Positions 36,973-38,600 of a stretch of DNA of 39,466 nt are shown here, piece by piece. The notes beneath the pieces are model-generated. The model was given only the letters and a program-made list of their open reading frames with translations, was not told the origin of the DNA and did no database searches. A program made the position numbers and the translations under genes. The stretch's first letter is position 1. Every line of letters begins with the position of its first letter. Source of the DNA: Candidatus Thorarchaeota archaeon (GTDB lineage: Archaea > Asgardarchaeota > Thorarchaeia > Thorarchaeales > Thorarchaeaceae); the NCBI GenBank assembly GCA_003345595.1, contig PRDI01000015.1:1-39466 (forward strand). The letters run 5' to 3'.

Positions 36973-37830
36973 TTGGACAGACAGCGAAGTGTGGCGAAGG
37001 TCTGGAGAAGTCAACCGACGTTGGAAGGCGCAGGTGTGCGTCTGAAGCGAGCCTTTGGATTCTATGAAGTCAAGGCACTCGACCCATTCCTGCTGCTTGA
37101 TGACTTTCATTCAAAGAACCCGGACGACTACGTCGCAGGCTTCCCATGGCATCCACATCGCGGCATTGAAACCGTAACGTACATGATTAGCGGAAAGGTT
37201 GCACACAGAGATAGCTTGGGCAATTCGGGAGTGATTGGACCCGGCGACGTCCAGTGGATGACTGCAGGAAGCGGGATCATCCACGAGGAGATGCCTGAGC
37301 GAACAGAGGGAATGTTGGCGGGCTTCCAGCTATGGGCCAACCTGCCGGCATCTCACAAGATGATGCGCCCACGCTACCGAGGAGTGGAGAGCAAGGACAT
37401 ACCTGAGGTGACACTTGAAGGCGGCGCAAGAGTCAAAGTGATATGTGGTAGAGTTGATGCCACAGTGGGGCCAGTGACCGAGATAATAACGGACCCTGAG
37501 TATTTGGATGTCACACTGTCCAGCAAGGGCCACTTCGTTCATGCAGTCAAGAGTGGGTACACAGCTTTTGCACACGTCATAGACGGAAGGGGCTACTTCG
37601 ACAAGAACCGGAGTCAGTCTGTGGAATCAGAAACAACCGTCCTGTTCTCAGACGGGTCCGAGGTCGAAGCACTGGCTGCTGCCAGAATGTTCCGTTTTCT
37701 CCTGGTTTCGGGCAGACCTCTTAGGGAACCGGTTGCTTGGAGAGGGCCAATCGTAATGAATACTGAGAACGAGCTGGCACTGGCCTTCGATGAGTATAGG
37801 AATGGTACGTTCCTGAAGCACAGACAGTGA
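36973..37830 (+). CDS. Pirin-family cupin protein
   Basis: The protein is 285 aa with two cupin domains. The N-terminal cupin has the full pirin metal site: His60 and His62 in FPWHPHRGIET, and His104 and Glu106 in SGIIHEEMP, with GDVQWMTAGSG before it. Pirins bind Fe or another metal; some are quercetinases and others regulators, so the precise role is open. The TTG start is fixed by a strong AAGGAGG site. It converges on the zf-PARP gene with about 50 bases between stops. Confidence 0.92.
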   Translation: MDRQRSVAKVWRSQPTLEGAGVRLKRAFGFYEVKALDPFLLLDDFHSKNPDDYVAGFPWHPHRGIETVTYMISGKVAHRDSLGNSGVIGPGDVQWMTAGSGIIHEEMPERTEGMLAGFQLWANLPASHKMMRPRYRGVESKDIPEVTLEGGARVKVICGRVDATVGPVTEIITDPEYLDVTLSSKGHFVHAVKSGYTAFAHVIDGRGYFDKNRSQSVESETTVLFSDGSEVEALAAARMFRFLLVSGRPLREPVAWRGPIVMNTENELALAFDEYRNGTFLKHRQ

Positions 37831-37881: not shown

Positions 37882-38553
37882 TCAGCCGAGAGCCTTCCTC
37901 ATGTCCTCTTTCTCTTGGTCTGATAGTTTGTCGAGTCCCTCAAACGAGTCGACAGAGCGGTTGCTGATCCTGCTCTTCACACACTCAAGATGGTGCCAGC
38001 GGTACGTGACATGCTCTTGGAACATAGAAGGCTCGCCAACACGAAGATGACCTTTCTCAATAGGTAGGTTGCAGGTCCGACATGTCGCGCGACCAGACTT
38101 GGCTGTTTCAATCACCCACTTCATCTCCTCTTCCTTGTGCTCCTCATCGACAAACTCCTTGAGTGATTCTAGAAACTGCTTGGGATTGGGGCCTGCGAGT
38201 TCCGGTGTCAAAGTCACGATGAATGAGTCGTACTGCGTCGGTTTGTATGACACGTCAACGTTTCCGTTTTTGTTGACCTGCTTGATTTCGGAGAATGGCG
38301 GCCATTGACTCGTGTCCTTCATGTATTTGACCATCTGCTTGACCAGAACATTGGACGCGTCTCTCTTGGAGATCATCTTCAGACCATCACTGGTTACGAG
38401 TCCGTACGCTGTGGAAGTGAATGTCCTGCCGCTGTCATCAGTGACATGAGACTTGATGAGCACCAAAGACCCGATTGGTGCTCCGTTCTTCACCCTAGGC
38501 ATTCGGAAGGAGTTAGGGTTCACGAAGTATGCCCATTCTTCGTGAATGTCCAA
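37882..38553 (-). CDS. Protein with C-terminal PARP-type zinc finger
   Basis: The protein is 223 aa. Residues 150-222 match the zf-PARP domain of eukaryotic PARP1 and DNA ligase III. It has AKSGRATCRTC, then RVGEPSMF, a Trp-His-His-Leu-Glu-Cys segment (WHHLEC) and a following helix with VDSFEGLDKLSDQEKEDM. The zinc ligands are Cys158, Cys161, His188 and Cys191 (C-x2-C-x26-H-x2-C; PARP1 finger 1 has x28). In eukaryotes this finger recognises DNA breaks. The N-terminal 135 residues form an unrecognised alpha/beta domain; there is no PARP catalytic domain. TTG 38553 is used because a TATA-like box about 51 bp upstream gives a short leader and an in-frame TAG lies only 12 codons further up. Confidence 0.85.
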   Translation of the reverse strand: MDIHEEWAYFVNPNSFRMPRVKNGAPIGSLVLIKSHVTDDSGRTFTSTAYGLVTSDGLKMISKRDASNVLVKQMVKYMKDTSQWPPFSEIKQVNKNGNVDVSYKPTQYDSFIVTLTPELAGPNPKQFLESLKEFVDEEHKEEEMKWVIETAKSGRATCRTCNLPIEKGHLRVGEPSMFQEHVTYRWHHLECVKSRISNRSVDSFEGLDKLSDQEKEDMRKALG

Positions 38554-38600
38554 CCATTCGGTCAGATACAGACTCTCCCAAGATACCTACGTAGCCAAGT

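Follow-up and report, generated by a model that had tools for sequence, protein, structure and literature searches.

The window, a stretch of 39,466 nucleotides from contig PRDI01000015.1 of the Candidatus Thorarchaeota assembly GCA_003345595.1 (2.73 Mb, 83% complete, 2.9% contamination), carries on its minus strand a gene for a small protein that joins a C-terminal PARP-type zinc finger to an N-terminal domain (N-domain) of its own. The coding sequence (37882-38553) starts with TTG and encodes 223 amino acids. The reading frame stays open upstream as far as a CTG at 38563-38565, and since homologues begin with MTEWLEY and the window reads L-TEWLDI, this CTG may be the true start (227 amino acids). 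On the same strand, the N-domain (residues 1-134, 38152-38553) is predicted to be beta-rich with one long helix, the linker (residues 135-144, 38122-38151) is variable in the alignment and modelled with low confidence, and the zf-PARP finger occupies residues 145-222 (37888-38121). A preliminary description had placed the finger at 37882-38106, which covers residues 150-223 and the stop codon; because W146 is invariant in the alignment of the window protein with P0002-P0013, the domain is taken to begin slightly earlier, near 38121.

The window protein carries a genuine zf-PARP finger. In eukaryotes, the PARP1 finger is the classic sensor of single-strand breaks, and a zf-PARP finger is also fused to DNA ligase III. 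The PF00645 profile matched the window gene with 62.2 bits (E 1.9e-16 in the genome search, cut-off 39.3) across profile positions 1-87 of 87, and with 60 bits (E 4e-16) when the protein was searched alone; this is the sole PF00645 match in the assembly. PARP or DNA ligase III fingers make up 15 of the 20 PDB sequence matches listed up to E 1 (E 5.1e-11 to 0.0013), and the predicted fold of the finger superposes on PARP1 Zn1, PARP1 Zn2 and the ligase III finger. The preliminary description had proposed the finger from its zinc-ligand pattern, which is present exactly (C158-x2-C161-x26-H188-x2-C191), and both the profile search and the modelled superposition bear the proposal out.

Residue conservation was counted in 73 distinct N-domain/finger proteins (window coordinates on the minus strand). 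The zinc ligands C158 (38080-38082), C161 (38071-38073) and H188 (37990-37992), equivalent to PARP1 C21, C24 and H53, are kept in 73/73, and C191 (37981-37983, PARP1 C56) in 72/73. R171 (38041-38043), the equivalent of PARP1 Arg34, which we take to contact DNA, is arginine in 72/73. Three further positions, R155 (38089-38091; R in 70/73), F178 (38020-38022; F or Y in 65/73) and V182 (38008-38010; L, V or I in 66/73), correspond to PARP1 Arg18, Phe44 and Val48. According to an excerpt of the PARP1 literature (PMC4678113), Arg18 is inserted into the DNA minor groove, Phe44 stacks on an exposed base and Val48 contacts nucleotides at the break. From this conservation and the model, the finger is predicted to recognise a nick, gap or end in the manner of PARP1 finger 1.

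The architecture around the finger differs from the known ones. Compared with PARP1, the window protein has a single C-terminal finger, and a Pfam scan found nothing besides zf-PARP above cut-off, i.e., no second finger, WGR domain or catalytic PARP domain (PF00644 had no match up to E 1). Neither does it hold the ligase domain of DNA ligase III; the one ATP-dependent DNA ligase match of the genome is a separate gene on a different contig, without a finger match. That the finger has neither a catalytic PARP nor a ligase partner in the same protein was claimed in the preliminary description and holds for the Pfam matches. Short two-finger proteins (L014-L017 and L019-L021, bacterial where titled, and P0014-P0017) have a closely similar first finger (AKSGRATCRTC...); they lack the N-domain, and P0014-P0017, which align with 22-32% of the query at 42-57% identity, hold two fingers in about 175 residues. 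The NCBI label "PARP-type zinc finger-containing protein" on P0021 and P0034, members of the same family, gives no function. An excerpt of a 2014 survey states that PARP proteins were not detected in any archaeal genome (PMC4245714), and none of the matches listed in a search of open-licence PMC full text, judged by title and start of abstract, dealt with Asgard zf-PARP proteins. The Pfam family PF00645 is already known; what we regard as new is a true zf-PARP finger outside PARP and ligase architectures, next to a partner domain that has no name.

The N-domain is compact and confidently modelled and matches no Pfam family, as the preliminary description had anticipated in calling it unplaceable. 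A protein search with the window protein gave 17 matches among 80 candidates: P0001-P0013 align along most of its length (P0001 is the window protein itself, the others 35-87% identical in the alignment), and the remainder are the short two-finger proteins P0014-P0017. An N-domain profile then gave 29 matches among 488 candidates; PF00645 is present in 27 of them, and the remaining two are fragments (112 and 105 amino acids). In alignments of 29 and 46 rows only K63, P85 and F111 are invariant, with K34 and D109 nearly so across the 46 rows. The domain has a net charge of -3 in the window and is acidic in 52 of the 72 members measured, an argument against simple binding of nucleic acid by the domain. 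It is no relative of the WGR domain as far as four Asgard WGR domains can tell (hhalign probability 0.4%). One full-length N-domain/finger protein (L010, 6046-6768, plus strand) lies on a contig titled Planctomycetota, and the GC content of 0.715 and the neighbours, bacterial-looking by eye, suggest at least one transfer to bacteria. Two irregular copies were also seen: a 160-residue N-domain without finger (L005, 9153-9632, plus strand) about 500 bases from an N-domain/finger gene on the same contig, and an N-domain/finger gene split across two frames (L065, 899-1601, minus strand), possibly a decayed or frameshifted copy.

Across 227 Asgard genomes the N-domain profile matched in 54, distributed over family f1 (19), f6 (16), f8 (2), f11 (1), f19 (7), f20 (6) and f21 (3). 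By our inferred assignments, f1, the family of the window, belongs to Thorarchaeota, f6 and f8 to Heimdallarchaeota and f9 to Hodarchaeota. The f11 match (L138 in G055, 24 bits) was rejected as a false positive, an AlaX-like protein by eye. Among genomes with the N-domain, zf-PARP is also found in every one of f1 (19/19) and f6 (16/16) and in none of the 16 of f19-f21; the two f8 genomes (G034, G037) have an N-domain/SWIM-type protein together with separate finger matches. Despite the different architectures, the N-domains solidly form one family (hhalign 99.2%, E 2.4e-19, 126 columns).

In the finger-less proteins the same N-domain is followed by another C-terminal module. Twenty such proteins were read, and 18 were counted after setting aside L139 (truncated) and L138 (false); outside the count stand two short places (46 codons with one stop in G103, 54 codons in G204:C244) and the L005 copy. 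A CxC...CxH motif of SWIM type is found in six, an OB-like region in ten, both in L137 and neither in L133. The six motif proteins (L120-L124 and L136, with L122 and L123 near-copies) carry the motif C-terminally in place of zf-PARP, e.g., L121 (1431-2033, minus strand), L122 (3735-4394, minus strand), L124 (4478-5110, plus strand) and L136 (4147-4797, plus strand). L137 (1-4107, plus strand) is an open frame of 1369 residues that combines the N-domain with an OB-like region, a pair of SWIM-type motifs and, by eye, LRR-like repeats. The OB-like profile necessarily finds the eight matches from which it was built; its independent matches are L125, L128 and L137. With these modules elsewhere, the N-domain appears to be the constant part of proteins with interchangeable nucleic-acid readers.

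The finger is in turn found in other settings. PF00645 matched in 57/227 Asgard genomes (54 over cut-off), by family f1 (20), f6 (17), f7 (3), f8 (6), f9 (10) and f10 (1). A catalytic PARP domain (PF00644) was over cut-off in 0/227 genomes, and so in none of the 57 with a finger; the one weak match reached 20.7 bits against a cut-off of 26.7. The WGR domain (PF05406) occurs in 20/227 genomes, with 18 of its 22 matches in open frames of 72-121 amino acids, and is absent from the window genome. The reader parts of PARP1 thus exist separately in the phylum, without the enzyme. The DNA-reading part with its end contacts intact is present where no catalytic domain passes its cut-off, and the origins of break sensing and of ADP-ribosylation come apart. 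As a separate observation, open frames of about 500 amino acids with a WGR match occur in f17, f21 and f20 (L096, 208-1707, plus strand, and L095 and L097); by eye, the WGR of L096 is preceded by an ATP-dependent DNA ligase domain together with a SWIM-like motif.

Finger open frames were read in each family, in part of the genomes (f8 4/6, f9 5/10, f7 2/3). The f8 proteins and one f9 protein (L054) have two fingers around a middle region, which in L054 is an Ssb-like OB domain (PF21473, 50.7 bits, over cut-off); in f8 it is OB-like by eye only, and a Pfam scan of L012 gave no OB match. In the other f9 genomes read, tandem fingers are followed by a tail that is winged-helix-like by eye. In f7 (two of three genomes found by profile, one scanned), the finger precedes an OB-like region with sub-threshold HROB support. 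Three arrangements are single cases. In L053 the finger precedes about 550 unplaced residues. In L062 (5190-5981, plus strand) a region that by eye resembles a PD-(D/E)XK-type nuclease is followed by a diverged finger, whose 28.9 bits are below cut-off; the nuclease-like region has no Pfam support, and L062 gave a weak PADLOC match to UzuA (E 0.0037). In L061 (4823-5692, minus strand) the finger is followed by a domain shared with LRR proteins that are encoded close to some of the finger genes. This domain is a large multigene family (86/227 genomes, up to 11 matches per genome) and was therefore given little weight as a functional link.

We put at about even the chance that the finger binds nicks or DNA ends and that the N-domain acts as a non-enzymatic adaptor which brings a separate repair factor to the break; DNA-break binding, the adaptor role and its partner are what we infer from the observations above. 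In such a protein the finger would fold around a single zinc ion and insert R155 into the minor groove, like Arg18 of PARP1 finger 1, and F178 and V182 would meet exposed bases as Phe44 and Val48 do. The N-domain would take no part in the DNA contact and would dock the partner, possibly the finger-less ATP-dependent DNA ligase of the same genome. The docking role is suggested because the N-domain is constant with three kinds of C-terminal module, is mostly net acidic and has no obvious catalytic set. The ligase is a plausible client because it is a separate gene here and is fused to the same kind of finger in eukaryotic ligase III. The preliminary description had proposed a break sensor with a novel effector; the sensor part fits the kept DNA-end contacts. 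As to the effector, K63, P85 and F111 form no evident active site, and the module swapping is equally compatible with an adaptor or a binding function. Common to PARP-finger, SWIM-type and OB-like architectures, the N-domain gives a handle, in a small and testable protein, on how Asgard archaea may treat DNA breaks.

Several observations weigh against the adaptor. The finger is patchy: G192 (93% complete), the second genome of the window's genus, lacks it, and 13/45 genomes of the best-genome subset have it, so it is not core machinery. The stacking aromatic is missing in 8 of the 73 members, and the net charge of the finger is negative in 22. Among window-type loci, viewed by eye in cluster representatives without a Pfam scan, no conserved repair neighbour was seen. 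Ten finger-less N-domain proteins were scanned against Pfam, and of the five among them with the CxC...CxH motif, L121 was over the SWIM cut-off (31.3 bits), L122 below it (16.5 bits) and L120, L124 and L136 unmatched. For the OB-like region, neither Pfam nor the PDB gave a significant match. The interchange of SWIM and OB modules could also mean that the N-domain itself joins in DNA binding. The strongest alternative is a two-handed DNA binder in which the finger would hold a duplex end and the N-domain, as a single-stranded nucleic-acid module, the single strand next to it, so that the protein would protect gaps without recruiting a partner. We regard it as unlikely.

It is improbable that the protein is a transcription regulator whose finger has lost break sensing and become a protein- or sequence-binding zinc module. 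The winged-helix-like tails after fingers in other Asgard families (L022 and L054, by eye) and the missing aromatics and negative fingers noted above are in its favour, but zinc ligands, minor-groove arginine and stacking pair are jointly kept in most members, including the window protein. More doubtful still is an enzyme with the N-domain as an unrecognised catalytic effector (e.g., a nuclease or end-processing activity) switched on at breaks: the domain is compact, well modelled and unrecognised, K63, K34 and D109 could in principle serve catalysis, and the Thorarchaeal L062 hints that finger-effector fusions may exist, but neither alignment shows clustered invariant D, E, H or C residues, the window has valine at a position where at least 90% of the 46 rows have glutamate, and Pfam lends no support to a nuclease in L062.

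Eukaryotes may have inherited the finger from this Asgard lineage. The main tree comprised 46 fingers and only 84 columns, after 12 of 58 rows were dropped as long or near-copies. Eukaryotes were represented by just five rows: PARP1 F1, PARP1 F2, ligase III, the plant finger 1v9x, which we take to be from Arabidopsis, and P0083, presumably eukaryotic as it carries PF21728, which we take to be the PADR1 domain. In the best tree these five form one group (96/87) among the window-type fingers, nearest to those of f6 (86/83), and the fork joining all is weak (73/80). A tree of all 58 rows, in which some branches are long, nested them in the same way (90/92). Several alternatives were not rejected: window-type fingers held apart from the eukaryotes (p 0.335), and eukaryotes grouped with Hodarchaeal F2 (0.295) or bacterial fingers (0.191); their grouping with Hodarchaeal F1 narrowly escaped rejection (0.058). 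The bearing on the origin of the eukaryotic finger that the preliminary description had seen is thus favoured by the best tree, while the alternative topologies stand beside it, and the nesting is a lead. The Hodarchaeal tandem was also considered as the source of PARP1 F1-F2; the pairings of F1 with F1 and F2 with F2 were marginally rejected (p-AU, the approximately unbiased test, 0.036 and 0.044), and independent duplications of the finger are likelier. Tentatively, and with less confidence than in the adaptor itself, an ADP-ribosylation-free break adaptor of Thorarchaeal or Heimdallarchaeal type, built of the N-domain and a single finger, could have been the ancestor of the PARP1 and ligase III fingers, which would have been duplicated in eukaryotes and joined to foreign catalytic domains, with the Hodarchaeal tandem arising independently. 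The N-domain would then be a new fold and an Asgard-born break hub with interchangeable readers (PARP finger, SWIM, OB).

Some loci share neighbours. L008, L078, L084 and L087, which form one genus-level group, have a sensor-like gene close upstream. At ten f6 loci (L011, L069, L070, L073-L076, L079, L081 and L083, with L011 and L070 on the same contig) the N-domain/finger gene is closely preceded, on its own strand, by a gene that is ferritin-like by eye (158-160 amino acids); in L079 a small open reading frame lies between the two. As these loci are closely related, the arrangement may be plain synteny. In the window, a pirin gene (36973-37830, plus strand; PF02678, PF05726) is convergent with the finger gene, and two response regulators, a KaiC-like ATPase and a TPR protein are encoded nearby.
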